DNA from: Microlunatus capsulatus
Lineage (GTDB): Bacteria > Actinomycetota > Actinomycetes > Propionibacteriales > Propionibacteriaceae
Direction: 5' to 3'
Assembly (NCBI RefSeq): GCF_017876495.1
Contig: NZ_JAGIOB010000001.1
Span: 1-64,000, forward strand
Length of the DNA: 64,000 bases
Shown here in pieces: positions 31,531 through 50,545 of this stretch. Made by a program: the position numbers and the translations under genes. The notes under the pieces were generated by a model that was not told the origin of the DNA, searched no databases, and saw only the letters and a list, made by a program, of their open reading frames with translations. Within the stretch, counting starts at the first letter, position 1, and each line of letters opens with the position of its first letter.

Positions 31531-33510
31531 ATGAGCGGAAGCGGTGGGCCGGGCGGGGAGCCCGTGGTGCTGGTGCTCGTGGGCCTGGGCCCGCGCGGCG
31601 CCGGGCTCCTGGAGCGGGTGGTCAGCAACGCCGCGGTGGAGAGCCGTCGGCCGGTGGAGGTCCACCTCGTCGACCCGTTCCCACCGGGAGGCGGCCGGGT
31701 GTGGCGCGACGCCCAGTCCGAGCTGCTCCGGCTCAACACCACCGCGGAGGACCTGACGGCCTTCGTCGACGCCAGCGTGACGATGGAGGGACCGGTGACG
31801 CCCGGCCCCTCCCTGGCGGACTGGTGCCGGACGGCGGGCGCGGGGCTCGCCGACCCCGCGCTGGTGTCAGAGGCGGCCGCCCTGGGCCCGCTCGACTTCC
31901 CGACGCGCCGGCTCGCCAGCGCCTACCTGGCTGCGGCCCTGGAGCGGACGCTGGCCCGGCTGCCCCCCTCGGTGACCGTCGTCACCCATGCCCGCCGGGC
32001 CGTCGACCTCCTCACGACCGGGACGGGGGAGCGCGACCTCGTCGTCCTCGACGACGGCACCCGGCTGGCCGCCGACGCCGTGGTGCTGCTGACCAGCCAC
32101 GTCGACGTCCGGCCCGCCCCGCCGTTCGCGGCGCTGGCGGCGTTCGCCGACGCGCACGGGCTGACCTACGTCCCGCCGGGTTACGGCGGTGACCTGGACC
32201 TCGAGCTGCTGCGGCCCGGCCAGGACGTCCTGGCCCGCGGGTTCGGGCTGGGGTTCGTCGACCTCATGGTCCTGCTGACCGAGGGCCGGGGCGGCAAGTT
32301 CGTGGAGGACCCGGACGACGACGCGCCGGGCCGGCTGCGCTACGAGCCGTCGGGGGCCGAGCCGCGGCTGCTCGTCGGTTCACGGCGCGGTGTGCCGTAC
32401 CACGCCAAGCCGATGTACCGGTTGCGCGCGGCCAAGCCGGAGCGGACCACCTTCTGCACCCCGGAGGCCGTCGCCGCCCTGCTGGAGCGCGGGCAGCCGA
32501 TCACCTTCCTCCGCGACCTCTGGCCGCTGGTCGCCCTGGAGGTCACCTGGGCCTACCACGTCGAGCTGGCGCAGGGCCACCCCGAGCGGGTGGCCGTGCC
32601 CTGGCCGGAGTTCGCGGCCACCTTCGCGCGGCTCGCGCCCGACGCGACGGCGCTGCACGGCTGGCTCACCGCCGTCGTGCCCGACGCCCGCGACCGCCTC
32701 GACCTCGCCGCCCTCGACCGGCCGTTGGACGGGCTCCGGGTCGTGGACCGCGAGGAGCTGCGCCGGGTCGTCCGCCGTCACGTCCGCGACGACCTCGACC
32801 GGCGCCAGGACGTGCGGTTCAGCGCCGACCTCGGGGCCTTCCACGGGCTGCTCGCCGTGCTCCCCGTGATCGGGCCGGCCCTCGGGTCCCCGCTGATGGA
32901 CCCGCGCTCGCTCGTCGAGGAGTTCACCGGCTGGTTCATGGGCTTCTTCAGCAGCTACGCCAGCGGTCCGCCGCCGGACCGGCTCGAGCAGTTCCTCGCC
33001 CTCGAGGAGGCCGGCGTCGTGCAGCTCGTCGGCCCCGGCCTGGAGGTCGCGGCGGACCCCGCGCGCCGCGTGTTCGTCGGCCGCTCGAGCGCGGTGCCCG
33101 GCGAGGTGACGGCTCGCGCCCTCCTCGAGGCGACCCTGCCGGCCTTCGACCTGGCCCGGGCCGACGACCCGCTGCTGGCGGCCCTGGCCGCCCGCGGCGA
33201 GGTCGCCAGCCAGGTCCTCACCGGCCCGGACGGGGTACGGCTCGACACCGGGCAGCTGGCCGTCGACGCCGGCCACCGCCTCCGCCGGGCCGACGGCACG
33301 ACCTCCCCGCGCCGCTTCGCGCTCGGGATGCACACCACCGTGAAGTCGGCGGCCTTCGCCCGGCCCGGCAGCAACGGGCCGGTGCACCGCCACAACGACC
33401 AGGTGGCCCGGGCGCTCCTCGCGCTCGAGCCGCTCACCGCCGCCACCAGCGGCACCCCCGTCCACCGACCGCCCGACACCGACCAGCCCCCACGTCCAGG
33501 AGGACAGTGA
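31531..33510 (+). CDS. FAD/NAD(P)-binding protein of the sulfur cluster
   Basis: 659 residues from ATG 31531 with AGGGG upstream (GTG 31528 possible). N-terminal NAD_binding_9-type dinucleotide fold: VVLVLVGLGPRGAGLLERVV (GxGPRG), VEVHLVDPFPPGGGRVWR, LLRLNTTAEDLTAF, DAVVLLTSHVDVRP. The rest resembles the large actinobacterial FAD/NAD(P)-binding proteins with FLRDLWPLVALEVTWAYHVEL and GRSSAVPGEVTARALLEATLPAFDLARA, ending GMHTTVKSAAFARPGSNGPVHRHNDQVARALL. An oxidoreductase role in organosulfur breakdown is implied by position: one base separates it from an SsuD-like gene. Confidence 0.85.
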   Translation: MSGSGGPGGEPVVLVLVGLGPRGAGLLERVVSNAAVESRRPVEVHLVDPFPPGGGRVWRDAQSELLRLNTTAEDLTAFVDASVTMEGPVTPGPSLADWCRTAGAGLADPALVSEAAALGPLDFPTRRLASAYLAAALERTLARLPPSVTVVTHARRAVDLLTTGTGERDLVVLDDGTRLAADAVVLLTSHVDVRPAPPFAALAAFADAHGLTYVPPGYGGDLDLELLRPGQDVLARGFGLGFVDLMVLLTEGRGGKFVEDPDDDAPGRLRYEPSGAEPRLLVGSRRGVPYHAKPMYRLRAAKPERTTFCTPEAVAALLERGQPITFLRDLWPLVALEVTWAYHVELAQGHPERVAVPWPEFAATFARLAPDATALHGWLTAVVPDARDRLDLAALDRPLDGLRVVDREELRRVVRRHVRDDLDRRQDVRFSADLGAFHGLLAVLPVIGPALGSPLMDPRSLVEEFTGWFMGFFSSYASGPPPDRLEQFLALEEAGVVQLVGPGLEVAADPARRVFVGRSSAVPGEVTARALLEATLPAFDLARADDPLLAALAARGEVASQVLTGPDGVRLDTGQLAVDAGHRLRRADGTTSPRRFALGMHTTVKSAAFARPGSNGPVHRHNDQVARALLALEPLTAATSGTPVHRPPDTDQPPRPGGQ

Positions 33511-33511
33511 C

Positions 33512-34603
33512 ATGCCCATCGAGTTCCTCGGCATCGGAGCCACCCACGACGGCTCCGAGACCACGCCCCGCTCCGGCGGCAGCTTCGACCCCGAGTACAC
33601 CGTCCGGCTGGCCCGTGCCCACCAGGACCACGGCTGGGACCGCGTGCTGACAACCTACGGCTCGGGCTCGCCGGACCCGGCGCAGGCCGCGGCCCTGATC
33701 GCCGCCCGCACCGACACCCTGCAGGTCCTCGTGGCGCACCGGCCCAACCTGTCGATCCCCACCTTCGCGGCCAAGACCCTGGCCACCCTCGACCACATCT
33801 CCGGGGGCCGGACGACGGTGCACATGATCACCGGCGGCAGCGACCACGAGCAGCAGCGGGAGGGCGACTTCCTCCCCAAGGACGCCCGCTACGACCGGAC
33901 CCGGGAGTACATCCAGATCCTCAAGCAGGTGTGGACCCGGCACGAGGCCTTCGACTTCTCGGGCGAGCACTACCGCTTCGCCGACTTCGTGGCCGACGTC
34001 TTCCCGGTCCAGCAGCCCCGGCCGCAGGTCAGCTTCGGCGGGTCCTCGGACGCGGCCTACGCCGTCGGCACGGCCGAGGCCGACATCTTCTGCCTGTGGG
34101 GCGAGCCGCTGGCCGACACCCGCGAGCAGATCGAGCGGGTCCGGCGCGAGGCGGCGGCCGCCGGCCGCGCGACGCCGCCCCGCATCCAGGTGGCGTTCCG
34201 GCCGATCCTCGCGCCCACCGAGGCGCAGGCGTGGGCCAAGGCCGAGGACGTCGTGCGCCGGATCGAGGCGCGCAAGGCCGGCGGCCAGCAGTTCCGGCTC
34301 GCCCCCGCGTCGCCGGAGAACACCGGCTCGCAGCGGCTGCTCGCCATCGCCGACCGCGGGGACCGGCACGACCGCATCCTCTACTCCGGGACGGCGAAGG
34401 CCACCGGCGGCGCCGGGAACTCCAACGCGCTGGTCGGCACCCCGGAGCAGGTCGCCGAGGCGCTCCTGGAGTACGTCGACCTCGGCGTGGACATCATCTC
34501 CGCGCGCGGCTACGACACCCTGCAGGACGCCGTCGACTTCGGCGACCAGGTGATCCCCCTCGTCCGCGCCGAGGTGGCCCGCCGGGAAGCCGTCGCCGCA
34601 TGA
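33512..34603 (+). CDS. LLM-class flavin-dependent monooxygenase, SsuD-like
   Basis: 363 residues from ATG 33512 with AGGAGGACAG upstream. The luciferase-like barrel is clear: EFLGIGATHDGSET, DHGWDRVLTTYGSGSPDPAQAAALIAARTDTLQVLVAHRPNLSIPTFAAKTLATLDHISGGRTTVHMITGGSDHEQQREGD, KDARYDRTREYIQILKQVW, FGGSSDAAYAVG. These match alkanesulfonate monooxygenases (SsuD/SfnG group), which release sulfite from sulfonates with reduced FMN. Its reductant could come from the FMN reductase or flavin reductase ending the cluster. Confidence 0.9.
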   Translation: MPIEFLGIGATHDGSETTPRSGGSFDPEYTVRLARAHQDHGWDRVLTTYGSGSPDPAQAAALIAARTDTLQVLVAHRPNLSIPTFAAKTLATLDHISGGRTTVHMITGGSDHEQQREGDFLPKDARYDRTREYIQILKQVWTRHEAFDFSGEHYRFADFVADVFPVQQPRPQVSFGGSSDAAYAVGTAEADIFCLWGEPLADTREQIERVRREAAAAGRATPPRIQVAFRPILAPTEAQAWAKAEDVVRRIEARKAGGQQFRLAPASPENTGSQRLLAIADRGDRHDRILYSGTAKATGGAGNSNALVGTPEQVAEALLEYVDLGVDIISARGYDTLQDAVDFGDQVIPLVRAEVARREAVAA

Positions 34604-34827
34604 GCGCCTCAGCACCCGGCCCGCGGGAGGGGCGCCGCCGCTCGCGCGGTGCCGCGGGGGACTGCGCCGCCTGGCTGGGCCCGCACGACCTCGCCGCCAT
34701 GGTGGGGCTGGCGGCGGCGGCGTCCGGCGGGCAGGCCGGGGCGGCTCCGGTCGGGTCGCCGGCCGGCTCTGCCGCCGGCCCCAGCCCGACCGTGCTGGCC
34801 GCCCGGCTGTCGACCCTGCTCCGCTAG
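34600..34827 (+). CDS. Small Ala-rich protein coupled to the SsuD-like gene
   Basis: 75 residues, start ATG 34600 overlapping the monooxygenase stop (ATGA). After a basic start it reads CAAWLGPHDLAAMVGLAAAASGGQAG and ends PTVLAARLSTLLR, two potential short helices around a Gly/Pro-rich linker. No known family. The exact 4-nt overlap supports translation. Confidence 0.55.
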   Translation: MSASAPGPREGRRRSRGAAGDCAAWLGPHDLAAMVGLAAAASGGQAGAAPVGSPAGSAAGPSPTVLAARLSTLLR

Positions 34828-34880
34828 CAACTCCCCGTCGTCCCGCTGCTCGGGACACCTGTCCACCTGCCGAGATTGCC

Positions 34881-34911
34881 TTGTATCCCTAGTAGTGCGC
34901 AGGGGTACAGT
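34881..34911 (+). promoter_or_regulatory. Promoter of the SAM-IV-controlled operon
   Basis: TTGTAT (34881-34886) and TACAGT (34906-34911) with 19-bp spacing, ending a few bases before the first aptamer helix. The spacer includes the CCCTAGTAG element resembling the inverted repeat at 31492-31506. Confidence 0.55.
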
Positions 34912-34916
34912 TCTTC

Positions 34917-35033
34917 CTGTCACGAGTGCCAGCGTCAAGCCCCGGCTTGCTGGCCGGCAACCCTCCTCCGCGGTGGGGTGCCCCGGGTGAGGACACGGCT
35001 GGCGTCCGTCCGGACGCCGGCAAGCGCGGACCC
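34917..35033 (+). ncRNA. SAM-IV riboswitch
   Basis: The sequence is close to known actinobacterial SAM-IV aptamers over its full length: GAGTGCCAGCGTCAAG, CCCCGGCTTGCTGGCC, GGCAACCCTCC, CGCGGTGGGGTGCCCCGGG, closing strand GAGGACAC pairing with the TGTC at the 5' end, and the downstream GGCAAGCGCGGACC that forms the SAM-IV-specific pseudoknot. It binds S-adenosylmethionine and switches off downstream genes when SAM is plentiful. It sits in the leader of the desulfurase-GST-monooxygenase-ABC operon, 35 nt before its first start codon. Confidence 0.93.
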
Positions 35034-35046
35034 CGGCCCGGGGTCC
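35028..35046 (+). promoter_or_regulatory. Expression-platform hairpin of the SAM-IV riboswitch
   Basis: GGACCCCGGCCCGGGGTCC forms a very stable stem that begins inside the 3' end of the aptamer and ends about 9 nt before the ribosome site GGAGG. It may act as an early terminator or fold the ribosome site away; no T-run is present, so translational control is slightly favoured. Confidence 0.5.
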
Positions 35047-35067
35047 TGTTCCCGGAGGTCGTCGGCG

Positions 35068-36468
35068 ATGAGCCTGCTCACCCACCCCAGCACCACCACG
35101 TCCCGCCGGCCGCCCGCGCCGGCCGCGCTGCTGCCCGTCGTCGGGGCCGGGCAGTCCGTGCCCCTCGTGGACGGCCGCAGCGCCCGCTACGTCCACCTTG
35201 ACTACGCCGCCAGTGCGCCGGCCCTGCAGGCGGTGGCCGACCACGTCACCGCCGTCCTGCCCGCCTACGCCAGCGTCCACCGCGGGGCCGGCTACCTGTC
35301 CCAGGTGTCCACCCGGCTGCTGGAGCAGGCGCGCGGCGAGATCGCCCGCTCGGTCGGCGCCCGGGACGACGACGTCGTGGTCCTCACCCGCAACACCACC
35401 GACGCGCTCACCCTGCTCAGCACCGCCGTGCCGGGCGAGGTCGTCGTGCTGGACGTCGAGCACCACGCCAACCTGCTGCCGTGGCAGCGGGGCACCGCCC
35501 GCGTCGTCCCCGCGGCCGGCACGCTCGCCGCGACCGAGGCGGCGCTGGCCGCCGAGCTGGGACGGCGGCCCGCCGCGCTGCTCGCCGTCACGGGGGCGTC
35601 GAACGTCACCGGCGAGGTGCCGCCGCTGGCCCGGCTGGCCGCCCTGGCCCACGCCCACGGCGCCCGGATCGTCGTCGACGCCGCGCAGCTCGTGCCCCAC
35701 CGGGGGTTCGACCTGGCGGGTCTCGACGTCGACTACGTCGCGTTCTCCGGGCACAAGCTGTACGCGCCGTTCGGCGCCGGTGCGCTGGTCGGCCGTCCCG
35801 ACTGGCTGGACGCGGCGCCGCCGCACCAGCCCGGCGGCGGCGCCGTCCGCGAGGTGGGCACGACCGCCACCGTCTGGGCGCGCAGCCCGGAGCGGCACGA
35901 GGGCGGCACACCCAACGTGCTCGGCGTCGCGGCGCTCGCCGAGGCCTGCCGCGTGCTGGCGGCCGTCGGGTTCGACCGGGTGCGCGAGCACGAGGCCGTC
36001 CTGCACGACCGGCTGGTGCAGGGGCTGCGCGACCGCGGGATCGAGCCGCTGCGGATCTGGACCGACGCGCCCGACGTCGTCGGCGTCGTCAGCTTCACCG
36101 TCCCCGGCTCCACGGCCTCGCAGGTCGCCGCGTTCCTCTCCGCCGAGCACGGCGTCGGGGTCCGCGACGGACGCTTCTGCGCCCACCCGCTGCTGGCCCG
36201 GCTCGGGGCGTCCGACGGCGCCGTGCGCGCCAGCCTCGGCGTCGGCAGCAGCGCGGCCGACGTCGACCGCCTCCTCGACGCCCTCGACCGGCTGCGCGCC
36301 GACGGCCCGCGCTGGACCTACACCAGCTCCGGCGGCAGCTGTCGACCGTCGCCCGACCCCCGCCCCCTGCCCGCGTGGTGGACCGGTGACGACGGCCTCG
36401 ACGGCCCGTCCGCCGCCCCGCCCTCGCCGTGCACCCCCACCCCCGCACCTCCTGGAGACCACCGATGA
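35068..36468 (+). CDS. Class V aminotransferase / cysteine desulfurase-like protein
   Basis: 466 residues from ATG 35068. PLP-enzyme landmarks: LDYAASAPALQAV, DVEHHANLLPW (His132/133), VTGASNVTGEVPPL, VVDAAQLVPHRGFDL (Asp204, Gln207), SGHKLYAPFGAG (Lys230, Schiff base), HEGGTPNVLGVAAL, and the loop DGRFCAHPLL whose Cys371 is at the persulfide position. The SufS/Csd architecture is complete. The Pro-rich C-terminal ~50 residues are an extension. First gene after the SAM-IV riboswitch; probably liberates sulfur from cysteine or an analogue made by the operon. Confidence 0.88.
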   Translation: MSLLTHPSTTTSRRPPAPAALLPVVGAGQSVPLVDGRSARYVHLDYAASAPALQAVADHVTAVLPAYASVHRGAGYLSQVSTRLLEQARGEIARSVGARDDDVVVLTRNTTDALTLLSTAVPGEVVVLDVEHHANLLPWQRGTARVVPAAGTLAATEAALAAELGRRPAALLAVTGASNVTGEVPPLARLAALAHAHGARIVVDAAQLVPHRGFDLAGLDVDYVAFSGHKLYAPFGAGALVGRPDWLDAAPPHQPGGGAVREVGTTATVWARSPERHEGGTPNVLGVAALAEACRVLAAVGFDRVREHEAVLHDRLVQGLRDRGIEPLRIWTDAPDVVGVVSFTVPGSTASQVAAFLSAEHGVGVRDGRFCAHPLLARLGASDGAVRASLGVGSSAADVDRLLDALDRLRADGPRWTYTSSGGSCRPSPDPRPLPAWWTGDDGLDGPSAAPPSPCTPTPAPPGDHR

Positions 36469-37412
36469 CCCTCACCACCCCCGGCACCCGCTTCGCCGGC
36501 CCCGTCGACACCGAGCGCTACGGCGAGTACCGGGTCACCCGGCGCCCCGACGACCCGCGGCCGCTCTACCGCTTCACCGGCCGGCTCAGCTCCGACGGCT
36601 CGACCCCGTTCCACGCCGAGCCCGGCCGGTACCACCTCTACGCCGGCTGGTTCTGCCCCTGGGCCCAGCGGGTGGTGCTGCAGGTCGCGGCCAACGGCCT
36701 GCTGGCCGCGCCCGGCGGCGAGGGCGCCCTCTCGGTGTCCTACGTCGACGACGCCCGCGACGCCCGGGGCTGGGCCTTCCGCGAGACCCACGGCCCCGAC
36801 CCCGTGAACGGGTTCACGCTGCTGCGGGACGCCTACGAGGCCACCGAGCCCGGCTTCGACGGCCACGTCAGCGTGCCGACGCTGTGGGACACCACGACCG
36901 GGCGCGTGGTCAGCAACGACTACACGACCCTCGGGATCGACATCGCCACCCAGTTCGGCGGCTCCCGGTGGCCCGGCGTGGACACCTACCCGGTGCACCT
37001 GCGCGAGGAGATCGAGGCCCTGGACGCCTGGGTCGGCCCCGCCGTCAACCAGGGTGCCGGCCGCGCCCGCGGCCAGGGGCCCGCCGCCGAGCAGGCCCGG
37101 GTCGAGCTGCGGGGCGCCTTCGACCGCCTGGACGCCCTGCTGGTGGACCGCAGCTTCCTGGTCGGCCACGGGCTGACCGAGGCCGACTTCCGGCTCTGGG
37201 TGAGCCTGGCCCGCTACGACGTGCAGACCAACGCCACCGGGGAGGTCGGGCCGCCGCTCAGCGCCTGGCCCGAGCTGGCCCGCTACGCCGGCTGGCTCGC
37301 CGACCTGCCCGCGTTCCGGGCCACCACGCGGTGGGCGAGCTTCACCGCCCCCGGCACCGCGCCCTCCTTCCTGCCCCCGGCCGCCGCCGCCACCGAGAGG
37401 ACCTCCGCATGA
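36465..37412 (+). CDS. Glutathionyl-hydroquinone reductase-like GST (Xi/Omega class)
   Basis: 315 residues from ATG 36465, overlapping the upstream stop by 4 nt. The thioredoxin-fold active site is YAGWFCPWAQRVVL with Cys64 in the CPWA motif of Xi-class enzymes (YqjG/ECM4). Other signatures are VSVPTLWDTTTGRVVSNDY and ALDAWVGPAVNQGAGRA, with a C-terminal helical domain containing LVGHGLTEADFRLWVSLARYD. Family enzymes reductively remove glutathione from quinone or other conjugates. Actinobacteria mostly use mycothiol, so the thiol partner here is an open question. Confidence 0.9.
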   Translation: MTLTTPGTRFAGPVDTERYGEYRVTRRPDDPRPLYRFTGRLSSDGSTPFHAEPGRYHLYAGWFCPWAQRVVLQVAANGLLAAPGGEGALSVSYVDDARDARGWAFRETHGPDPVNGFTLLRDAYEATEPGFDGHVSVPTLWDTTTGRVVSNDYTTLGIDIATQFGGSRWPGVDTYPVHLREEIEALDAWVGPAVNQGAGRARGQGPAAEQARVELRGAFDRLDALLVDRSFLVGHGLTEADFRLWVSLARYDVQTNATGEVGPPLSAWPELARYAGWLADLPAFRATTRWASFTAPGTAPSFLPPAAAATERTSA

Positions 37413-38620
37413 CGGGCCCGCTGCACCTCGCCGTCGCACTCGACGGCGCCGGGTGGCACCCCGCCGCCTGGCGGCTGCCGTCGGCCCGCCCCGCCGAGCT
37501 GCTGACCGCGGGCTACTGGACCGATCTCACCCGGCGCGCGGAGGAGGGCCTGCTGGACCTCGTCACCTTCGAGGACGCCCTCGCCCTGCAGCGCTCCGAC
37601 CCCCGCGGCTCCGGCCCGGACGACCGCACCGACGAGGTCCGCGGGCGTCTCGACGCGGTGCTCGTCGCCGCCCGGGTGGCCCCGCTGACGTCGCGGATCG
37701 GCCTGGTGCCGACGGCGACGGTCACCCACACCGAGCCGTTCCACGTCTCCAAGGCCATCGCCACCCTGGACCACGTCTCCGACGGGCGCGCCGGCTGGCG
37801 GGCCCAGGTCTCCGTGCGGCCGGAGGAGGCGGCCCACGTCGGCCGCCGCGAGGTCCCGCGGGTGGACCTGCTGCGACCCGACGACCCGGCCACCCGCCAG
37901 CTCGTCGAGGACCTCTTCGCCGAGGCGGGCGACGCCGTCGAGGTGGTCCGCCGCCTCTGGGACAGCTGGGAGGACGACGCCGAGATCCGCGACGTCGCCA
38001 CCGGCCGGTTCGTCGACCGCGACAAGCTCCACGCCGTCGACTTCGAGGGCCGCTGGTTCAGCGTCCGCGGGCCCTCGATCACCCCGCGGCCGCCGCAGGG
38101 GCAGCCGCTCGTCGCCGCCCTCGCCCACGCCGCGGTCCCGCGGGCCTTCGCCGCCCGCTCGGCCGACGTCGTCTTCGTCACCCCGTCCGACAACGCGGGC
38201 GCGGCGTCCGACGTCGCCGACATCACCCGGCACCGCGAGGCCGCCGGGCGTGCGGGGACCACCCACGTGTGGGCGGACCTCGTCGTCCTGCTGGACCCCG
38301 ACGCCGACCGGGCGCACCGCCGCTGGCAGCAGCTCGAGACCTGGTCGGGGCGCACCTTCAGCAGCGACGCCGAGGTGTTCGTCGGCACCCCGCAGGGGCT
38401 GGCCGACCTGCTGCTGGCGCGGGCCGAGGCCGGCCTCACCGGCTTCCGGCTGCGGCCGGCCGCCCTGCCCGAGGACCTGGACGTGGTCGTCGACGCGCTG
38501 GTGCCGGAGCTGCAGCGCCGCGGGGCGTTCCGCACGGCCTACGAGGCCGACACCCTGCGCGGCCTGCTCGGCCTGGCCCGCCCGCTCAACCGCTACGCGT
38601 CCGTGGAGGACCTCCGATGA
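37409..38620 (+). CDS. LLM-class flavin monooxygenase (second of three)
   Basis: 403 residues from ATG 37409, overlapping the GST stop by 4 nt. Luciferase-like features: LHLAVALDGAGWHPAAWR, EEGLLDLVTFEDALAL, RIGLVPTATVTHTEPFHVSKAIATLDHVSDGRAGWRAQVS, HAVDFEGRWFSVRGPSITPRPPQGQPLVAALA, RSADVVFVTPSD. It has the layout of NtaA/SnaA/DszA-like enzymes, though shorter in the insertion. Likely oxidises a C-S bond using reduced flavin. Confidence 0.88.
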   Translation: MTGPLHLAVALDGAGWHPAAWRLPSARPAELLTAGYWTDLTRRAEEGLLDLVTFEDALALQRSDPRGSGPDDRTDEVRGRLDAVLVAARVAPLTSRIGLVPTATVTHTEPFHVSKAIATLDHVSDGRAGWRAQVSVRPEEAAHVGRREVPRVDLLRPDDPATRQLVEDLFAEAGDAVEVVRRLWDSWEDDAEIRDVATGRFVDRDKLHAVDFEGRWFSVRGPSITPRPPQGQPLVAALAHAAVPRAFAARSADVVFVTPSDNAGAASDVADITRHREAAGRAGTTHVWADLVVLLDPDADRAHRRWQQLETWSGRTFSSDAEVFVGTPQGLADLLLARAEAGLTGFRLRPAALPEDLDVVVDALVPELQRRGAFRTAYEADTLRGLLGLARPLNRYASVEDLR

Positions 38621-40053
38621 CCGCACCCCGCAAGCAGATCCACCTCGCCGCCCACTTCCCGGGCGTCAACAACACCACCGTGTGGAGCGACCCGGCCGCC
38701 GGCAGCCACATCGCGTTCAGCTCGTTCGTGCACCTCGCGCAGACCGCCGAGCGCGCCAAGTTCGACTTCTTCTTCCTGGCCGAGGGCCTGCGCCTGCGCG
38801 AGCAGAACGGGCAGATCTACGACCTCGACGTCGTCGGCCGGCCGGACACCTTCACCGTCCTGGCCGCGCTGGCCGCGGTCACCGACCGGCTGGGCCTGGC
38901 CGGCACCATCAACTCCACCTTCAACGAGCCCTACGAGGTGGCCCGGCAGTTCGCCAGCCTGGACCACCTCTCGGCCGGGCGCGCGGCCTGGAACGTCGTC
39001 ACCTCCTGGGACGCGTTCACCGGCGAGAACTTCCGCCGGGGCGGGTACCTGCCCCAGGACGAGCGCTACGCCCGCGCCCAGCACTTCCTCGACGCCACCT
39101 CCACCCTGTTCGACTCCTGGCGCGGCGACGAGGTGCTGGCCGACCAGCGGTCGGGCGCCTTCCTGTCCCGGCCCGACGTCGGACGGTTCGCCCACGCCGA
39201 CCAGCACGTCGACATCGCCGGGGCCTTCACCACCCCGCGCAGCCCGCAGGGCCGGCCGGTGATCTTCCAGGCCGGGGACTCCGAGGAGGGCCGGGAGTTC
39301 GCCGCGGCCTCCGCCGACGCGATCTTCACCGGGCACTCCACCTGGGACGCCGGCCGCGCGTTCTACGCCGACCTCAAGGGCCGGCTGGCCCGGCACGGCC
39401 GCCGGCCCGAGCAGCTCGTCGTGCTGCCGGCCGCCACCTTCGTGCTGGGGGACACCGACTCCGAGGCCGCCGACCTGGCGCACGACGTGCGCCGGCTGCA
39501 GGTCAGCGGGCAGACGGCCATCAAGTTCGCCGAGCAGCTCTGGAACACCGACCTGTCCGACCACGACCCGGACGGCCCGCTGCCCTCGTTCGACCCGGTG
39601 GTGGGGGAGAACACGATCGCCCGCGGCCGCGCCAGCGTCCGCCGCTTCCGCGACCCGGTCGCCACCGCGCGGGAGTGGCGGGAGCGGGCCGAGGCCGAGC
39701 ACCTGTCGCTGCGCGAGCTGGTCATCGAGATGACCGGGCGGCAGTCCTTCATCGGCTCGGCCGAGACGGTGGCGACGACGATCGACGCCTTCGTGCAGGG
39801 CGACGTCAGCGACGGCTTCATCCTCGTCCCCCACATCACCCCGGGCGGCCTCGACCGGTTCGCCGACGAGGTGGTGCCGCTGCTGCAGGAGCGCGGCTCC
39901 TTCCGCACCGAGTACGAGGGCACGACCCTGCGCGACCACCTCGGGCTCGACACCCCCGAACCCGCCGCCCGCCCCCAGCCCGGCGCCCCGCGCCCTGAGC
40001 CTGTCGAAGGGCTCGTGACGTCCACCGCCGCCCGGGCCGCCCGCCGGCCCTGA
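38617..40053 (+). CDS. NtaA/SnaA/DszA-type FMN-dependent monooxygenase (third)
   Basis: 478 residues from ATG 38617, overlapping the previous stop by 4 nt. Typical family blocks: IHLAAHFPGVNNTTVWSDP, FVHLAQTAERAKFDFFFLAEGL, TINSTFNEPYEVARQFASLDHLSAGRAAWNVVTSWD, GYLPQDERYARAQHFL, HVDIAGAFTTPRSPQGRPVIFQAGDSEEGREFAA, GQTAIKFAEQLW. Members include DszA and other C-S or C-N cleaving oxygenases. The last 30 residues are Pro/Ala-rich and include PRPEPVEGL, encoded by an inserted palindromic repeat (39992-40012), so the C-terminus has been extended or changed. Confidence 0.9.
   Translation: MTAPRKQIHLAAHFPGVNNTTVWSDPAAGSHIAFSSFVHLAQTAERAKFDFFFLAEGLRLREQNGQIYDLDVVGRPDTFTVLAALAAVTDRLGLAGTINSTFNEPYEVARQFASLDHLSAGRAAWNVVTSWDAFTGENFRRGGYLPQDERYARAQHFLDATSTLFDSWRGDEVLADQRSGAFLSRPDVGRFAHADQHVDIAGAFTTPRSPQGRPVIFQAGDSEEGREFAAASADAIFTGHSTWDAGRAFYADLKGRLARHGRRPEQLVVLPAATFVLGDTDSEAADLAHDVRRLQVSGQTAIKFAEQLWNTDLSDHDPDGPLPSFDPVVGENTIARGRASVRRFRDPVATAREWRERAEAEHLSLRELVIEMTGRQSFIGSAETVATTIDAFVQGDVSDGFILVPHITPGGLDRFADEVVPLLQERGSFRTEYEGTTLRDHLGLDTPEPAARPQPGAPRPEPVEGLVTSTAARAARRP
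39992..40012. repeat. REP-like palindromic element inside a coding region
   Basis: The core CCTGAGCCTGTCGAAGG, flanked by complementary GC / GGGC ends, is a palindromic repeat seen scattered in many GC-rich bacterial genomes. It normally sits between genes; here it encodes PRPEPVEG at the end of the third monooxygenase. I found only this copy in the window. Confidence 0.6.
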
Positions 40054-40122
40054 GCCGCGCGTCGCGCGCCGCACCCGCACCCGCACCCGACGACCCGTCC
40101 CTCCACTCCTGAAGGAACCCTC

Positions 40123-41727
40123 GTGAGCACGCCCCTCCGCCGTCCCGGCGCCGTCCTGCTGGTCCCCGCCCTCGCCGCCGCCCTCGCGCTGAGCGCCTGC
40201 GGCGGCAGCAGCACGACCGCCGGCACCGGCGACGCCGACACCTTCCGCTTCGCCCTCGCCTCCGACCCGGGCTGCCTCAACCCCCGCGTCGCCGGCAACA
40301 ACGACGCCGCCTACCCCTCCCGCCAGCTGGTGGACTCACTCACCGACCAGGACCCCGGGACCGGGGAGATCAAGCCCTGGCTGGCCGAGACGTTCTCCGT
40401 CGACAAGACCGCCACCCGGTTCACCTTCACCCTGCGCGACGGCGTGACCTTCAGCGACGGCACGCCCCTGACCGCCGCCGTCGTGCAGCAGAACTTCGAC
40501 GAGATCATCGCGAACGGCGCCGCGCAGGCGCAGTCGCTGCAGTTCCTCACCGGCTACGCCCGCACCGTCGTCGTCGACGAGCGCACCGCCCGGGTCGAGT
40601 TCGACCAACCCAACGCCCAGTTCCTGCAGGCCACCGCCAGCCACTTCCTCGGGCTGCTGGCCCCGTCGTCGCTCGCGGCGGACCCGGCGACGCGCTGCGA
40701 CGGGAACATCGTGGGCACCGGCCCCTTCGTCCTCGACCACTACACGAAGAACACCGAGGTGGTGGAGACCCGGCGGCCGGGCTACGCCTGGGGGTCCTCC
40801 CTCTGGGACCACACCGGCGAGGCCGCCTCGGCGCGGCTCGACTTCAGGGTGATCCCGGAGTCCGGCGTGCGCTCGGGCTCGCTGCGCTCCGGCCAGGTGG
40901 ACGCGATCAACGGGGTCCCGCCCCAGGACGAGGCGTCGCTCGCGGCCGGCGGGACCACCCTGCAGATCCGGCCGAACCCCGGGCTGGTGTTCACCCTCAC
41001 CCCGAACATCAAGCGCCCGGCGCTGTCCGACGTCCGGGTCCGGCGGGCGCTCAGCCTCGCGGTCGACCGGCCCGCCGTCGTCGCGGCCGCGCTGAGCCCC
41101 AGCTTCGAGGTGGCCTCCAGCGCCGTCGCCGGCACCACGCCCGGCTGGGTCGACCTCAGCAGCCAGCTCACCCACGACCCCGCGGAGGCCGAGCGCCTGC
41201 TCGAGGCGGCCGGCTGGACGGAGGGGGCCGACGGCATCCGGCAGAAGGACGGCCAGAAGCTGCGCCTGGTGACCTACTGGGCGCCCGTCTTCAACCCCAA
41301 CCAGACCGCCCTGGAGCTCATCCAGCAGCAGGCCCGCCAGGTGGGCATCGAGCTGGACCTCAACTCCCTGCCGGTCGGGGAGCTGCAGGCCAAGCTGGCG
41401 ACGGGGGACTTCGACCTCTCGTGGGGCAACAGCACCCGGCCCGACCCGGACATCCTGCGCAACACCTACTGGCGCGACGGCGCCGCCCCGTACGGGATCG
41501 ACGACCCCGCCCTGGTGAAGGCCCTGAAGGGGCAGCAGACGACGACGGACCAGGAGGTCCGGTTCGCCGACGCCGCCCGCGCCCAGCGGGTCATCGTCGA
41601 TAAGGCCTACGGCGTCCCGGTCTTCGAGCTGACGACGGTGCTGGGGCTGCGGCCCGGCGTCACCGGCGTCCGGTTCGACTCCTACTCCCGGCTGCAGCTC
41701 GTCGCGGCCGCCGCCACGGGGGACTGA
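40123..41727 (+). CDS. Dipeptide/oligopeptide-type ABC solute-binding lipoprotein
   Basis: 534 residues from GTG 40123 with GAAGGAAC upstream. Lipobox LSACG (Cys26). Solute-binding family 5 landmarks: DSLTDQDPGTGEIKPWLAETFSVDKTATRFTFTLRDGVTFSDGTPLTA, GTGPFVLDHYTKN, LSDVRVRRALSLAVDRPAVV, DPAEAERLLEAAGWTEGADGI, GDFDLSWGNSTRPDPDILRNTYWRDG. It delivers substrate to the permeases that follow. In this riboswitch-controlled operon the substrate is probably a sulfur-containing peptide or conjugate (inference). Confidence 0.9.
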   Translation: MSTPLRRPGAVLLVPALAAALALSACGGSSTTAGTGDADTFRFALASDPGCLNPRVAGNNDAAYPSRQLVDSLTDQDPGTGEIKPWLAETFSVDKTATRFTFTLRDGVTFSDGTPLTAAVVQQNFDEIIANGAAQAQSLQFLTGYARTVVVDERTARVEFDQPNAQFLQATASHFLGLLAPSSLAADPATRCDGNIVGTGPFVLDHYTKNTEVVETRRPGYAWGSSLWDHTGEAASARLDFRVIPESGVRSGSLRSGQVDAINGVPPQDEASLAAGGTTLQIRPNPGLVFTLTPNIKRPALSDVRVRRALSLAVDRPAVVAAALSPSFEVASSAVAGTTPGWVDLSSQLTHDPAEAERLLEAAGWTEGADGIRQKDGQKLRLVTYWAPVFNPNQTALELIQQQARQVGIELDLNSLPVGELQAKLATGDFDLSWGNSTRPDPDILRNTYWRDGAAPYGIDDPALVKALKGQQTTTDQEVRFADAARAQRVIVDKAYGVPVFELTTVLGLRPGVTGVRFDSYSRLQLVAAAATGD

Positions 41728-41730
41728 GCG

Positions 41731-42705
41731 GTGACCCGCTACCTGCTGGGCCGGGTCGGCCAGGCCGTCCTGGTGCTGTGGGCGGCCTACACCGTGGCCT
41801 TCCTCGTCCTGTACGGTCTGCCCGGGGACCCAGCGGCGCTCATCGCCGCCGGCGGGGACGTCGCCAACAGCGCGGCGACGCCGGAGCAGGTGGCCGCGCT
41901 GCGCGCGCAGTACGGCTACGACCAGCCGCTGGTCGTCCAGTACCTGCACCACCTCGGCGCCGCCCTCACCGGGGACCTCGGCACCTCGCCGCGGACGGGT
42001 CCCGTCGCCGCCTCGATCGCGCAGGCCGTCCCGCCGACCGCCCAGATCGCGGCCCTCGGGCTGCTGCTCTCGGTGGTCGTCGGCGGCGGGCTGGCCCTGA
42101 CCGCCACGTTCGTCCGGACCCGCTGGCTGCGCCAGCTCCTGCTGTCCCTGCCCCCGCTGGGGGTCTCGGTGCCCAGCTTCTGGATCGGGCTGCTGCTGCT
42201 CCAGGGGTTCTCCTTCGGGCTGGGCTGGTTCCCGGCCTTCGGGAACGACGGCCCTGCCAGCCTCGTTCTGCCGGCGGTCACCCTGGCCGTCCTCGGCAGC
42301 GCCCTGGTCGCCCAGGTCTTCGCCCGCAGCCTGCGGGGCGAGGCCGCCGAGGCCTACGCCGACACCGCCCGGGCCAAGGGCGCCTCCCGGCTGCGGGTGC
42401 ACCTGCGGCACACCGCCCGCAACGCCTCCCTGCCGACGTTCACCATCACCGGCCTGCTGGTCGGGCAGTTCCTCGCGGGCACGGTGGTCACCGAGACGGT
42501 CTTCTCCCGCGCCGGCCTGGGCCAGCTCACCGCGACCGCGGTCAGCACCCAGGACATCCCGCTGGCGCTCGGCGTCGTCGTCTTCGGCGCCGCGGTGGTG
42601 GTCGCGGCCAGCCTGGCCGTCGACCTCGCCTACCCGCTGCTCGACCCGCGGATGCGACGGGTGACCCGGCCGGCCCGCGGACCGGTCCCGGCGGTGGCGT
42701 CATGA
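41731..42705 (+). CDS. ABC transporter permease, DppB type
   Basis: 324 residues from GTG 41731, 3 nt after the binding-protein stop. About six membrane segments, starting RYLLGRVGQAVLVLWAAYTVAFLVLYGLPGDPA. The inner-membrane coupling loop is EAAEAYADTARAKGASRLRVHLRHTARNASLPTFTITGLLVGQFLAGTVVTETVFSRAGLG, the EAA motif of DppB/OppB proteins. Confidence 0.93.
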   Translation: MTRYLLGRVGQAVLVLWAAYTVAFLVLYGLPGDPAALIAAGGDVANSAATPEQVAALRAQYGYDQPLVVQYLHHLGAALTGDLGTSPRTGPVAASIAQAVPPTAQIAALGLLLSVVVGGGLALTATFVRTRWLRQLLLSLPPLGVSVPSFWIGLLLLQGFSFGLGWFPAFGNDGPASLVLPAVTLAVLGSALVAQVFARSLRGEAAEAYADTARAKGASRLRVHLRHTARNASLPTFTITGLLVGQFLAGTVVTETVFSRAGLGQLTATAVSTQDIPLALGVVVFGAAVVVAASLAVDLAYPLLDPRMRRVTRPARGPVPAVAS

Positions 42706-43610
42706 GCCTCCTCGACACCCGCTCCGCCCTGCTGGACGACGGTGGCGTCCCGCCCGTGGCCGAGCCGGAGCCCGCCCGGTCCCGGCGACGGGGACGGTGG
42801 CGCCTGCTGCTGGCCCCCGGCCTGCTGGTCTCGGCGCTCTGGCTGCTCCTGGTGGTCGTCGCGGCGTTCGGGCCGGGCCTGCTCACCGCGACCGACCCGT
42901 ACGCGGCCGACACCACGGCGCTGCTGCAGCCGCCCTCGGCCGCCCACTGGTTCGGCACCGACCAGATCGGCCGCGACCTGTTCAGCCGCGTCGTCCACGG
43001 CTCCGCCCTGTCGCTGCAGGCGACCCTGATCGCGGTGGCCGTCGGGGTGGTCCTCGGCGCCGCCGTCGGGCTGCTGGCCGGAGCCGCGGGCGGCTGGCTC
43101 GACGCGGTGCTGATGCGCGCCGTCGACGTCCTGCTGGCCATCCCCAGCCTGCTGCTCTCGCTCGCCCTCATCACGGTGCTCGGCCCCGGCACGGTCAACG
43201 TGGCCATCGCCGTCGGATTCGGCAGCGTGGCGGGCTGCGCCCGGATCATGCGGGCCGAGGTGCTCCGGGTCCGGCAGTCGGTCTACGTGGAGGCGGCGAC
43301 CTCGCTGGGCGTCCGGCGCCGCACCGTGCTGCTCCGGCACGTCCTGCCCAACGCGGCCGGCCCGGTGCTGGTGCTCGCCGCGCTCGACTTCGGCACGGCC
43401 ATCCTGGCGGTCTCCTCGCTGAGCTTCCTCGGCTACGGGGCCAAGCCGCCGACGCCGGAGTGGGGCTCCCTGGTGGCCGCCGGGCGCGACTTCCTGGGCA
43501 GCGGCTGGTGGCTCACCACGCTGCCCGGGCTCGTCGTCGTCGCCACCGTGCTCGCCGCCAACCGCATCGCCCGCGCCCTGGAGCGCGGCCGAGAAGGAGC
43601 TGACGCATGA
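42702..43610 (+). CDS. ABC transporter permease, DppC type
   Basis: 302 residues from ATG 42702, overlapping the first permease by 4 nt. DppC features: HWFGTDQIGRDLFSRVVHGSALSL, VDVLLAIPSLLLSLALITVLGPG, EAA loop SVYVEAATSLGVRRRTVLLRHVLPNAAGPVLV, SFLGYGAKPPTPEWGSLVAAGRDF. Forms the membrane pore with the DppB-type partner. Confidence 0.93.
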   Translation: MSLLDTRSALLDDGGVPPVAEPEPARSRRRGRWRLLLAPGLLVSALWLLLVVVAAFGPGLLTATDPYAADTTALLQPPSAAHWFGTDQIGRDLFSRVVHGSALSLQATLIAVAVGVVLGAAVGLLAGAAGGWLDAVLMRAVDVLLAIPSLLLSLALITVLGPGTVNVAIAVGFGSVAGCARIMRAEVLRVRQSVYVEAATSLGVRRRTVLLRHVLPNAAGPVLVLAALDFGTAILAVSSLSFLGYGAKPPTPEWGSLVAAGRDFLGSGWWLTTLPGLVVVATVLAANRIARALERGREGADA

Positions 43611-45346
43611 CCACCACCACGACCGCGCGGGAGCACGTCGCCGCGGACGCCGCTCCCGCCCCGGTCCCCGGCCGGGCGGCGGCTCCTGCCGAGCGCGGCC
43701 CGAGCCTGCTGCGGCTCGCCGGGCTGCGGGTGACCTACGGGAGCGGGGCCCGCGCCGTCGCCGCCGTCCGGGGCGTCGACCTCGAGGTCGACGCCGGGGA
43801 GACCGTCGCCCTCGTCGGGGAGTCCGGCTCGGGCAAGTCGACGACGGCCCACGCGCTGCTGGGCCTGCTGCCGCCCGCGGCACGGGTGAGCGCCGGCGCC
43901 GCGACGCTCGACGGCGAGGCCCTGCTGGCCCCGGGCCGCCGGCCGCCGCGCGGGCTGCTCGGCCGCCGGGTCGGCTTCGTCCCGCAGGACCCGATGACCG
44001 CCCTCAACCCGGTCCAGCGGGTCGGCGACCAGGTGGCGGAGGTGCTGCGGGTGCACGGCTTGGCCGACCGCGCCGGGGCGGCCGAGCGGGCCGTCGACGC
44101 CCTCGCCCGCGCCGGCCTGGACCGCCCGGCCGAGCGCGCCCGGCAGTACCCGCACGAGCTCTCCGGCGGCATGCGGCAGCGGGTGCTGATCGCCATCGCC
44201 CTCGTCGCCGAACCCGCCCTGCTGGTGGCCGACGAGCCGACCAGCGCCCTGGACGTCACCGTCCAGCGGGTGATCCTCGACCGGATCGCCGCGCTCAGCG
44301 CCGACACCGGGACCGGCGTCCTGCTCATCACCCACGACCTCGGCGTCGCCGCTCAGCGGGCGGACCGGGTGGTGGTGATGCGGGGCGGGGAGGTCGTCGA
44401 GCAGGGCCTGTCCCGCTCGCTCGTCGCCTCGCCCCGGCACCCGTACACGCGGGAGCTGCTGGCCGCCGCGCCCGGCCCCGGCTCGCCGGTGCTCGCCGCC
44501 CCGCGGCCGGCGGACGCGCCCGGCGTCGTGCCGCTGCTGGAGCTCCGCGCGGTGCGGAAGGAGTACCCGCTGCCCCGCGGCAGCGCCCAGGCCGTGCTAG
44601 CCGCCGTCGACGGCGTCGACCTCGTCGTGGGCCGGGCGGAGACCGTCGGCCTGGTGGGCGAGTCCGGCTCCGGCAAGTCGACGACGGCGCGGCTGGCCGC
44701 CCGGCTGGTGGAGCCGAGCGGCGGCGGCGTCCTCTTCGACGGCGAGGAGGTCGACGGGGTGCGCGGCGAGCGGCTGCGCCGGCTGCGCCGCCGCTTCCAG
44801 CTCGTCTACCAGAACCCGTACGCCTCGCTCGACCCCCGGCTGAGCGTGGGGGACAGCGTCGCCGAGCCGCTCCGGGCGTTCGGCGTCGGCCCCCGGCGCG
44901 AGCGCGGCGAGCGCGTCGCCGAGCTGCTGGAGCGGGTCGCGCTGCCGCGGGCGGCCGCCGACCGGCGGCCGGCCGAGCTCTCGGGGGGCCAGCGGCAGCG
45001 CGTCGCCATCGCCCGCGCGCTCGCGCTGCGGCCGGACCTGGTGATCTGCGACGAGCCCGTCTCGGCCCTCGACGTCTCGGTCCAGGCCCGGATCCTCGAG
45101 CTGCTCGTCGGGCTGCAGGCCGACCTCGGCCTCAGCTACCTCTTCATCTCCCACGATCTGGCGGTGGTGCGCCAGATCGCCCACCGCACCGCCGTGATGC
45201 GGGCGGGGCTCGTCGTCGAGTCCGGCCCCACCGAGCAGATCTTCACCGACCCCCGCACCGACTACACCCGCGAGCTGCTCGCGGCCATCCCCGACCCGCA
45301 CGCCCCCCGCGCGCCGCGCCCCGCGGCGGAAGGACGACGACCATGA
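43607..45346 (+). CDS. Fused DppD-DppF-type ABC ATPase
   Basis: 579 residues from ATG 43607, overlapping the permease by 4 nt. Two complete nucleotide-binding domains. Domain 1: Walker A GESGSGKSTTAHAL, signature ELSGGMRQRVLIA, Walker B LLVADEPTSALDV. Domain 2: Walker A GESGSGKSTTARLA, signature ELSGGQRQRVAIA, Walker B LVICDEPVSALDV, H-loop FISHDLAVV. The fusion of the usual separate D and F subunits is common in actinobacteria. Energises the importer. Confidence 0.94.
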   Translation: MTTTTTAREHVAADAAPAPVPGRAAAPAERGPSLLRLAGLRVTYGSGARAVAAVRGVDLEVDAGETVALVGESGSGKSTTAHALLGLLPPAARVSAGAATLDGEALLAPGRRPPRGLLGRRVGFVPQDPMTALNPVQRVGDQVAEVLRVHGLADRAGAAERAVDALARAGLDRPAERARQYPHELSGGMRQRVLIAIALVAEPALLVADEPTSALDVTVQRVILDRIAALSADTGTGVLLITHDLGVAAQRADRVVVMRGGEVVEQGLSRSLVASPRHPYTRELLAAAPGPGSPVLAAPRPADAPGVVPLLELRAVRKEYPLPRGSAQAVLAAVDGVDLVVGRAETVGLVGESGSGKSTTARLAARLVEPSGGGVLFDGEEVDGVRGERLRRLRRRFQLVYQNPYASLDPRLSVGDSVAEPLRAFGVGPRRERGERVAELLERVALPRAAADRRPAELSGGQRQRVAIARALALRPDLVICDEPVSALDVSVQARILELLVGLQADLGLSYLFISHDLAVVRQIAHRTAVMRAGLVVESGPTEQIFTDPRTDYTRELLAAIPDPHAPRAPRPAAEGRRP

Positions 45347-45900
45347 CCTCCCTGCTCGACCCCTCCGGACCGCCCCCGGGCGTCCTCGCCCTGGCCGGCA
45401 ACCCCCGCCCCGGGTCCCGCACCCTGCTGGTGGCCCGGACGGTCGCCGACCAGCTGGCCGACCGGCTCCACCTCGGCGGCACCACCGCCCTGGACCTCGC
45501 CGACGTCGCCGGTGAGCTGTTCGCTGCCGAGGCTCCCGCGGCCGACCGCTACCGGGCGGCGCTCGCCGGCGCGGCGGTCGCGGTGGTGGCGACGCCCGTC
45601 TACAAGGCCAGCTACACCGGCCTGCTCAAGGCGTTCCTCGACGGCCTCCCCACGGGCGGGCTGCGGGGGGTGCTCGCGGTGCCCGTCGTGGTCTCGGCCA
45701 GCCCCGCCCACTCCTTCGCGGCCGAGCACCTGCTGCGGCCGCTGCTCGTCGAGCTCGGCGCGCTGGTCCCCGCCCGCCCGCTGGCCCTGACGGAGGCGCA
45801 GCTCGGCGACCTCGACGCCGTGGTCGCCTCCTGGGCCGACGAGGCCGCCCCGCTGCTGGCCCGGCTGGTGCCGGCCCCGGTGCCGGGGAGCGACCGGTGA
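45343..45900 (+). CDS. NAD(P)H-dependent FMN reductase, SsuE-like
   Basis: 185 residues from ATG 45343, overlapping the ATPase stop. Flavodoxin-like reductase: VLALAGNPRPGSRTLLVARTVADQL, VVATPVYKASYTGLLKAFLDGLPTGGLRGVLAVPVVVSASPAHSFAAEHLLRPLLVELGA. This matches the SsuE/MsuE family that supplies reduced FMN to SsuD-type monooxygenases, consistent with the three flavin monooxygenases in the same region. Confidence 0.9.
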   Translation: MTSLLDPSGPPPGVLALAGNPRPGSRTLLVARTVADQLADRLHLGGTTALDLADVAGELFAAEAPAADRYRAALAGAAVAVVATPVYKASYTGLLKAFLDGLPTGGLRGVLAVPVVVSASPAHSFAAEHLLRPLLVELGALVPARPLALTEAQLGDLDAVVASWADEAAPLLARLVPAPVPGSDR

Positions 45901-46424
45901 CCGCCCGCTCCTGGCCGCCCGGCGCGGTCCCCGCCGAGCCGCTCGACCCCGGGGCCTTCCGGTCGGTGTTCCGCCGCCACCCGGCCGGGGTCGCCGTCGT
46001 CACCCTGGCCGACGGCGACCGCCCCGTCGGCTTCACCGCCACCTCGGTCATCTCGGTGTCCGCCGAGCCGCCGGTGCTGGTGTTCTCCGTCGCCGGCACC
46101 TCGTCCTCCTGGCCGGCGCTCTCCCGGGCGACCAGCCTGGTGGTCAACTTCCTCGCCGCCGAGCAGGTCGACGTCTCGGCCCGGTTCGCCACCAGCGGCA
46201 TCGACCGGTTCGCCGGTGTCGCCTGGCAATGGCTGCCGAGCGGCGAGCCGGTGGTGGACGGGGTCCCCTCCTGGGTGCGCGGTGAGGTGCTGCAGCGCAC
46301 AGCGGTGGGGTCGAGCTTCCTCGTCGCCGTCCTGGCCACCCGGGCCGAGCAGCGCGACGGGTCCGCGCCGCTCGTCTACCACGACCGCGCCTACCACCGG
46401 GTGGACGACGGCTCGGCGGTCTGA
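45897..46424 (+). CDS. Flavin reductase domain protein
   Basis: 175 residues from GTG 45897, overlapping the FMN reductase by 4 nt. Flavin-reductase-like split barrel: FRSVFRRHPAGVAVVTLADGDRPVGFTATSVISVSAEPPVLVFSVAGTSSSWPALSRATSLVVNFLAAEQVDVSARFA, LVYHDRAYHRVD. Such DIM6/NTAB-type reductases pass reduced FMN to two-component monooxygenases of the NtaA/DszA group. With the SsuE-like protein the operon has two reductant sources. Last gene of the coupled series. Confidence 0.9.
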   Translation: MTARSWPPGAVPAEPLDPGAFRSVFRRHPAGVAVVTLADGDRPVGFTATSVISVSAEPPVLVFSVAGTSSSWPALSRATSLVVNFLAAEQVDVSARFATSGIDRFAGVAWQWLPSGEPVVDGVPSWVRGEVLQRTAVGSSFLVAVLATRAEQRDGSAPLVYHDRAYHRVDDGSAV

Positions 46425-50231: not shown

Positions 50232-50320
50232 GCGGATCGTGGTGGGTCGTGCCGCGATGTCGCGGCACGGTCCGCCACGGTCATGGGTCGGGGTCCGGCG
50301 GGGCGGGGGCTGCTAGGTTC

Positions 50321-50495
50321 GGCGGTACGAGCTGGTCGTGCACCCGGGAGGGTGACAGGGAACCCGGTGGGACTCCGGGGCTGGCGCGCAGCGGTGAGGG
50401 TGACGTGGGTGGCGTGAGACCACTGGGACCGGTGAGGTCCTGGGAAGGTGCCATCGGCGGGTGATCCCGAGTCCGAAGACCTGCCGGCTCGCTGT
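50321..50495 (+). ncRNA. Cobalamin (adenosylcobalamin-type) riboswitch
   Basis: All conserved blocks are present in order: GGGAACCCGGTG (50358-50369), GACTCCGGGGCTG and CGCGCAGCGGTGA (50371-50397), the CCACTGGG and CTGGGAAGG regions, and the B12 box GAGTCCGAAGACCTGCC (50469-50485). It lies in the 314-nt leader of the FhuF-like and binding-protein genes and should switch them off when cobalamin is abundant. Outer boundaries are approximate. Confidence 0.93.
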
Positions 50496-50545
50496 CCGCC
50501 GTCAGGACCTCGCGACCTGGGTCCCCCGACCGAAACGAGACTGGT

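Follow-up and report, generated by a model that had tools for sequence, protein, structure and literature searches.

A twelve-gene run around a SAM-IV riboswitch

Positions 31531–46424 of a 64,000-nucleotide stretch of the Microlunatus capsulatus genome (the window) hold twelve genes, all on the + strand and all with intact frames, that are interrupted by an S-adenosylmethionine (SAM) riboswitch of the SAM-IV class and that probably form a SAM-repressed system for organosulfur salvage. An earlier reading made from the letters alone (the sequence-only reading) described co-directional genes joined mostly by 4-nt overlaps, and this is borne out: such overlaps are present at seven of the eleven junctions, the other four measuring +1, +464 (which contains the riboswitch), +69 and +3 nt. 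Pfam families are confirmed for all twelve proteins and NCBIfam families for 10 of 12, the two permeases having been left out of the NCBIfam scan. The host genome is a single contig of 4.41 Mb with two SAM-IV copies.

The run opens with NB9 (31531–33510, +; Pfam NAD_binding_9), a FAD/NAD(P)-binding relative of the class B flavin monooxygenases, followed by an SsuD-like luciferase-like flavin monooxygenase (LLM; 33512–34603, +; Bac_luciferase) that lacks the sulfonate arginines. Behind the SAM-IV aptamer (34918–35032, +; RF00634) lie CSD, a cysteine-desulfurase-like class V pyridoxal phosphate (PLP) enzyme with Lys230 and Cys371 (35068–36468, +; Aminotran_5), and a Xi-type glutathione transferase (GST; 36465–37412, +), assigned by its CPWA motif at Cys64 and by solved relatives that include Xi GSTs and a glutathionyl-hydroquinone reductase. 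Two further LLMs follow, LLM5 of the NtaA/DszA/CmoJ type (37409–38620, +) and LLM6 of the NtaA/DmoA family (38617–40053, +). The remaining genes, also on the + strand, encode a family 5 solute-binding protein (SBP; 40123–41727; SBP_bac_5), two ABC importer permeases (41731–42705 and 42702–43610; both BPD_transp_1), a fused double ATPase of the dipeptide type (43607–45346; ABC_tran in two stretches plus oligo_HPY), an SsuE-like NAD(P)H:FMN reductase (45343–45900; FMN_red) and an HsaB/HpaC-like flavin reductase (45897–46424; Flavin_Reduct, 114.7 bits). A putative GNAT N-acetyltransferase (30605–31366, −; Pfam FR47/Acetyltransf_1), divergent from NB9 and absent from the list of the sequence-only reading, belongs to the gene set.

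The aptamer matches RF00634 over model positions 1–116 of 116 with 118.5 bits (E 2.6e-21; the gathering score is 38) and ends 35 nt 5′ of the CSD start codon. On this match the RNA is a SAM-IV riboswitch, with a predicted response to SAM. A GC-rich inverted repeat (35028–35046, +) is placed between the aptamer and the ribosome-binding site, a like repeat being visible in L021 (loci and other fetched stretches carry L numbers, genomes G numbers), and is a possible expression platform. The sequence-only reading had placed the genes largely under SAM-IV control. The riboswitch is real, but because NB9 and the SsuD-like LLM precede the aptamer it can lead ten genes and not twelve. A promoter and terminator consensus scan gave no promoter-like site and one terminator-like site that did not rise above shuffled sequences. 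By eye, NB9 and the riboswitch seemed to share an operator-like motif upstream of each; a genome-wide search allowing one mismatch matched the NB9 site only, and the motif was therefore discarded as a regulon signal. A small frame (34600–34827, +) overlaps the stop of the SsuD-like LLM gene by ATGA, and its C-terminal ARLSTLLR seems to be repeated ahead of the riboswitch in two loci that are without the SsuD-like LLM, L022 and L024.

Conservation and predicted sulfur-responsive leaders

Relatives of LLM5 at E ≤ 1e-30 are present in 14 of 147 genomes of the host family, the host included, and in 4 of the 14 other genomes listed for the genus, at 78–88% identity. One of these, G088 (L021), has all twelve genes in the same order, one additional LLM being inserted after LLM6 and ahead of the binding protein, and among the loci examined beyond the host it is the only one with the complete set together. 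Three further genomes (G041, G074 and G114) keep NB9, the GST, LLM5, LLM6 and both reductases; their loci, of which that of G041 starts at the edge of its contig, contain neither a dipeptide-type importer nor any closely related SsuD-like LLM, and in G074 an amino-acid importer adjoins NB9. The GNAT gene is likewise divergent beside NB9 in the genus mates L021 and L023. G088, G041 and G074 retain CSD together with SAM-IV; the G114 locus has neither, and the search made here found no SAM-IV in the G114 genome. G125 has CSD and the LLM5 run at separate places, each behind its own SAM-IV. The GST gene of G074 is split into two frames (L024 11278–12239, −).

Wider neighbourhoods were counted in the best 80 loci of a longer list drawn from an LLM5 scan of named genomes, which form the basis of all counts out of 80, using a codon log-odds gene finder trained on the twelve window genes together with ad hoc protein clusters. 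In 76 of these 80 actinobacterial loci LLM5 and LLM6 are direct neighbours on the same strand. The conservation that the sequence-only reading asked to be checked is thus present, with all twelve genes in G088 and a widespread LLM5–LLM6 core. Importers of the dipeptide type accompany the pair in 17 loci and amino-acid (cystine-like) importers in 20, 34 loci having at least one of the two; additional LLMs, belonging to two different families, are found in 41 loci, NB9 in five, and GSTs of the window's type in nine and of another branch in 11. GNATs of the window's family occur in 13 loci, 10 of which (counting L045) also have an amino-acid ABC importer (Fisher 2e-5; the Fisher and Poisson figures ignore genome relatedness). 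An Allorhizobium locus with a 53% relative of LLM6 carries five LLMs, a GNAT, ABC genes, an M20 aminoacylase and a sulfonate-type SBP side by side. A family labelled c17 (for example L110 13831–14676; the tested member is DUF1684) recurs in nine of 90 fetched neighbourhoods.

SAM-IV, scanned with a covariance model built from six copies, is present in 12 of the 80 loci as 15 copies, where about 0.30 would be expected (from 58 copies per 304 Mb in 39 genomes). It stands ahead of CSD in L040 and L110, ahead of an amino-acid importer–GNAT–LLM5–LLM6 run in five Streptomyces loci (L041, L043, L051, L054 and L062), ahead of the equivalent run without GNAT in L084, and ahead of LLM5 in L047. Other copies precede a second amino-acid importer (L040), a dipeptide-type importer run (L067), further LLMs (L110) and other-branch GSTs (L035, L039 and L047). 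In the further locus L154 two head-to-head SAM-IV copies lead CSD on one side and an LLM–LLM5–LLM6–reductase run on the other. The GNATs of the five Streptomyces operons are 55–57% identical to the window protein. In G041 the gene for an 85% relative of the SsuD-like LLM follows a SAM-IV of its own, and both there and in G161 relatives of the GNAT, LLMs or importer are found close to SAM-IV copies. G161, a Nakamurella and the genome of L110, has nine SAM-IV copies, several with LLM, GNAT or permease relatives nearby. A narrow literature search found no SAM-IV-led LLM operons in print.

Short frames ending in H-[VI]-D-L-x-R...C form a second class of leader, a pattern matched 44 times across the 80 loci and never in their reversed sequences. 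Half of them (22 of 44, spread over 20 loci) lie no more than 250 nt upstream of LLM5 or one of its paralogues; others precede an other-branch GST (five loci), the SsuD-like LLM (three), the binding protein (three) or NB9 (one). When four of the frames were compared with NCBIfam, one matched a ‘putative leader peptide’ model at 27.1 against a cut-off of 27, one fell below the cut-off of the Ms4527A Cys-rich leader, and two had no match. Leader peptides of the Cys type work as attenuators that respond to cysteine. When leaders are counted solely ahead of NB9, the SsuD-like LLM, LLM5, LLM6 or the binding protein, 29 of the 80 loci have a SAM-IV, a Cys-type leader or both, in agreement with the earlier expectation of sulfur control.

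A proposed salvage route and its alternatives

The gene content, the riboswitch, their conservation and the linkage of the enzymes to SAM-IV or Cys-type leaders in relatives are what we observe. The reading that we favour, and hold to be somewhat better than an even bet from these comparisons, is a SAM-repressed organosulfur salvage that is the actinobacterial counterpart of the salvage of S-substituted cysteines in Bacillus. At low SAM the riboswitch would permit expression of CSD, the GST, LLM5, LLM6 and the genes behind them, and the ABC importer would take up a cysteine substituted at its sulfur, either free or as part of a small peptide or conjugate. The divergent GNAT would acetylate the amine, NB9 or one of the LLMs would oxidize the sulfur, and LLM5 and LLM6, supplied with FMNH2 by the two reductases, would cut the C–S bond to give an aldehyde and N-acetylcysteine sulfenate. 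Reduction of this sulfenate, or of the mixed disulfide that it forms with a small thiol, may fall to the Xi GST, and a deacetylase encoded elsewhere in the genome could free cysteine in trans; two M20 amidohydrolases score above cut-off elsewhere in the host genome. Finally, CSD would desulfurate cysteine (or cysteine sulfinate), and the sulfur would go into making methionine and SAM.

NB9 has a near full-length match (289 bits) to 8cp2, an L-aspartate N-hydroxylase (PMC10404684, available in part). The equivalents of the active-site asparagine Asn62 and of Arg577 are kept in 10 of 10 sequences, and the four aspartate-site residues compared (R409, R412, N413 and R416) are all lost in the same ten. 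We therefore rejected aspartate N-hydroxylation in spite of the shared fold; NB9, keeping the asparagine and losing the aspartate site, is probably a class B type flavoprotein with a substrate other than aspartate, and it may carry out sulfoxidation. LLM6 exceeds the cut-off of TIGR03860 (NtaA/DmoA family; 396.5 against 279.7 bits) and LLM5 falls slightly under it (267.1). The solved relatives of LLM6 are led by YtnJ, named CmoJ in 6ask (276 bits), followed by BdsA and an NTA (nitrilotriacetate) monooxygenase (251 bits each). The SsuE-like reductase scores below the cut-off of TIGR03567 (86.6 against 164.05 bits), as does the binding protein against its best NCBIfam model, TIGR04028 (320.2 against 468.5 bits), and a fold search with a model of the binding protein (mean pLDDT 89) gave ties among glutathione, dipeptide, nickel and opine binders.

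An unlikely alternative is that the genes salvage small sulfides, sulfones or sulfonates, with the three LLMs acting in series in the manner of DmoA, SfnG and SsuD. The whole-protein score does make the second gene SsuD-like (219.6 bits against TIGR03565, with the cut-off of 518.2 not reached), and it shares its family and active-site tryptophan (the equivalent of Trp195) with SsuD and MsuD. Unlike those enzymes it has lost the sulfonate arginine pair: at the positions of MsuD R225 and R296, 7 of 7 sequences carry A and T/S. In MsuD the change of either arginine to alanine leaves no measurable sulfite, according to the available part of PMC8234197. Sulfonate cleavage by this protein is thus not supported. 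What stands of the scavenging proposal of the sequence-only reading is a conserved salvage under sulfur control; support is lacking for a peptide or thiol conjugate as the imported substrate, given the ties of the binding-protein model, and for removal of the conjugate by the GST. The assimilation of dimethyl sulfide by two-component monooxygenases and one flavin reductase in soil bacteria, including a Rhodococcus (PMC13352529, seen in part), and the sulfonate-type SBP of the Allorhizobium locus also favour such substrates. They are ill-suited to a GNAT and to peptide or amino-acid importers, and no Pfam domain of the acyl-CoA-dehydrogenase type (group D) is found among the twelve proteins.

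CSD is the most novel part of the system, with no function given for it in the accessible portions of the literature found. It belongs to the same fold family as SufS, CsdA and CsdB, and alignment with SufS and CsdB shows the positions of the PLP lysine and the persulfide cysteine to be kept, whereas GHHCA of those enzymes is replaced by GRFCAHP in six SAM-IV-linked CSD sequences. CSD scores 272.7 bits against TIGR01979, where 475.1 is required, and lies under the curated cut-off of every NCBIfam model listed for it. At E ≤ 1e-90 it is present in 122 of 345 genomes of the class, the host included. Among 35 CSD loci, comprising the 29 best-scoring and six lower-scoring ones picked by hand, SGHK is present in all 35 and FCAHP in 33, and SAM-IV lies directly 5′ on the same strand in 33. 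Because SAM-IV leads CSD, usually as a lone gene, in nearly all of these loci, the window riboswitch most likely arrived together with CSD. Conversely, of 20 stretches picked by hand because they surround other SAM-IV copies, 10 contain CSD and two matched none of 15 queries. In Streptomyces clavuligerus a class V PLP enzyme, CRV15_21540, stands behind a predicted SAM-IV for which a premature transcript was observed (PMC8269248, in the part available); it is likened to the window CSD by description.

The second host SAM-IV (G000:C1:2962405–2962520; L030 9906–10021, −) is followed by a leader-peptide-like frame, the only cysteine dioxygenase found in the host genome and a rhodanese, and G088 has the same dioxygenase–rhodanese pair behind its second SAM-IV. 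A tentative and rather doubtful extension is that CSD represents a SAM-repressed actinobacterial family that bypasses classical transsulfuration and passes the sulfur of cysteine, or of cysteine sulfinate, on to the synthesis of methionine, with the LLM, GNAT and importer module feeding it cysteine recovered from S-conjugates. Both SAM-IV copies of the host would then lead genes that release sulfur from cysteine.

The same distribution bears on a less likely explanation, that one transcript joins two separate units, CSD together with a SAM-IV that belongs to it and an LLM–importer operon that lies behind them by chance. It draws on the 33 of 35 loci just described, in which the CSD neighbours, where identified in some of the fetched stretches (sixteen of them hand-picked), are mostly unrelated (Tex, glycosyl transferase family 3 and peptidase M28), and on G114, where NB9, the GST, LLM5, LLM6 and the reductases persist without CSD at the locus and without a SAM-IV found in the genome. 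Against chance, CSD precedes LLM genes in the window, L021, L022, L024, L040 and L110; LLM runs headed by another gene have a SAM-IV of their own in L026, L041, L043, L047, L051, L054, L062, L084 and L154. Catabolism of aminopolycarboxylates (NTA- or EDTA-like) or of other non-sulfur compounds by NtaA/EmoA-type monooxygenases, a dipeptide-type importer and FMN reductases fits the family of LLM6 and the presence of EmoA and an NTA monooxygenase among the solved relatives of the LLMs, and is highly improbable given the SAM-IV and Cys-type leaders, which speak against it, and the GNAT, CSD and GST that it leaves unexplained.

Several observations weigh against the cysteine-conjugate salvage that we prefer. 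CSD is present in only three of the 80 LLM5 loci, one copy being of the ordinary GHHCA type, so its tie to the LLM pathway is loose. For LLM6 the DszA-like BdsA comes close to YtnJ, and LLM5 ties with four different enzymes, its NTA-, BdsA- and CmoJ-type relatives not being separated, so that the C–S substrate is not fixed. No deacetylase Pfam domain is found among the 13 proteins (the twelve and the GNAT), and the window cluster has no cystine-type ABC importer. The Streptomyces GSTs with their own SAM-IV or leaders belong to another branch, at 28–31% identity to the window GST; 51 of the 80 loci have neither a SAM-IV nor a counted leader; and in Mycobacterium avium SAM-IV is reported ahead of an O-acetylhomoserine sulfhydrylase (PMC3774663, available in part).

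Downstream of the run, a siderophore-interacting protein gene (48461–49279) and a Peripla_BP_2 gene (49272–50231) adjoin a cobalamin riboswitch (50316–50502, +; 79.6 bits), which lies 5′ of a weak FhuF-like gene (50546–51391) and another Peripla_BP_2 binding protein gene (51465–52553).

Comparison with known salvage pathways

A sulfur regulon that can be read from sequence, through SAM-IV and Cys-type leaders, links several oxidative enzymes to organosulfur use in Actinobacteria, and it singles out a widespread SAM-IV-led PLP enzyme whose reaction is directly testable. The Streptomyces loci, with an amino-acid ABC importer, a GNAT and four LLMs, are those that we take to be closest in layout to the Bacillus operon.

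The sequence-only reading knew of no pathway with exactly this gene set, and our literature search found none; the core of acetylation, oxidation and cleavage has nevertheless been described already (PMC10863075 and PMC9706529, both available in part). As far as the accessible text goes, the yxe locus for breakdown of S-(2-succino)cysteine (PMC9706529) resembles the window in its acetyltransferase, LLM monooxygenase (YxeK, likened by description) and ABC importer. It differs in its YxeP-type deacetylase, a domain missing from the window, and CSD, the GST and NB9 are not listed among its components there. In the CmoO/CmoJ path of B. subtilis, as given in the available part of PMC10863075, S-alkylcysteine is acetylated, oxidized to the sulfoxide and cleaved to a sulfenic acid and an aldehyde, followed by reduction and deacetylation. 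The window would share with this path the N-acetylation, through the GNAT gene found beside its LLM genes, a possibly CmoJ-like LLM, a flavin reductase and the breaking of the C–S bond in an S-substituted, N-acetylated cysteine. Unlike that path, as far as the same text covers it, the window cluster has no deacetylase gene and adds a dipeptide-type importer, the LLM5–LLM6 pair, the SsuD-like LLM, NB9, the Xi GST, CSD and SAM-IV. Its parts are mostly of known enzyme kinds, and their combination has no counterpart in the literature found.

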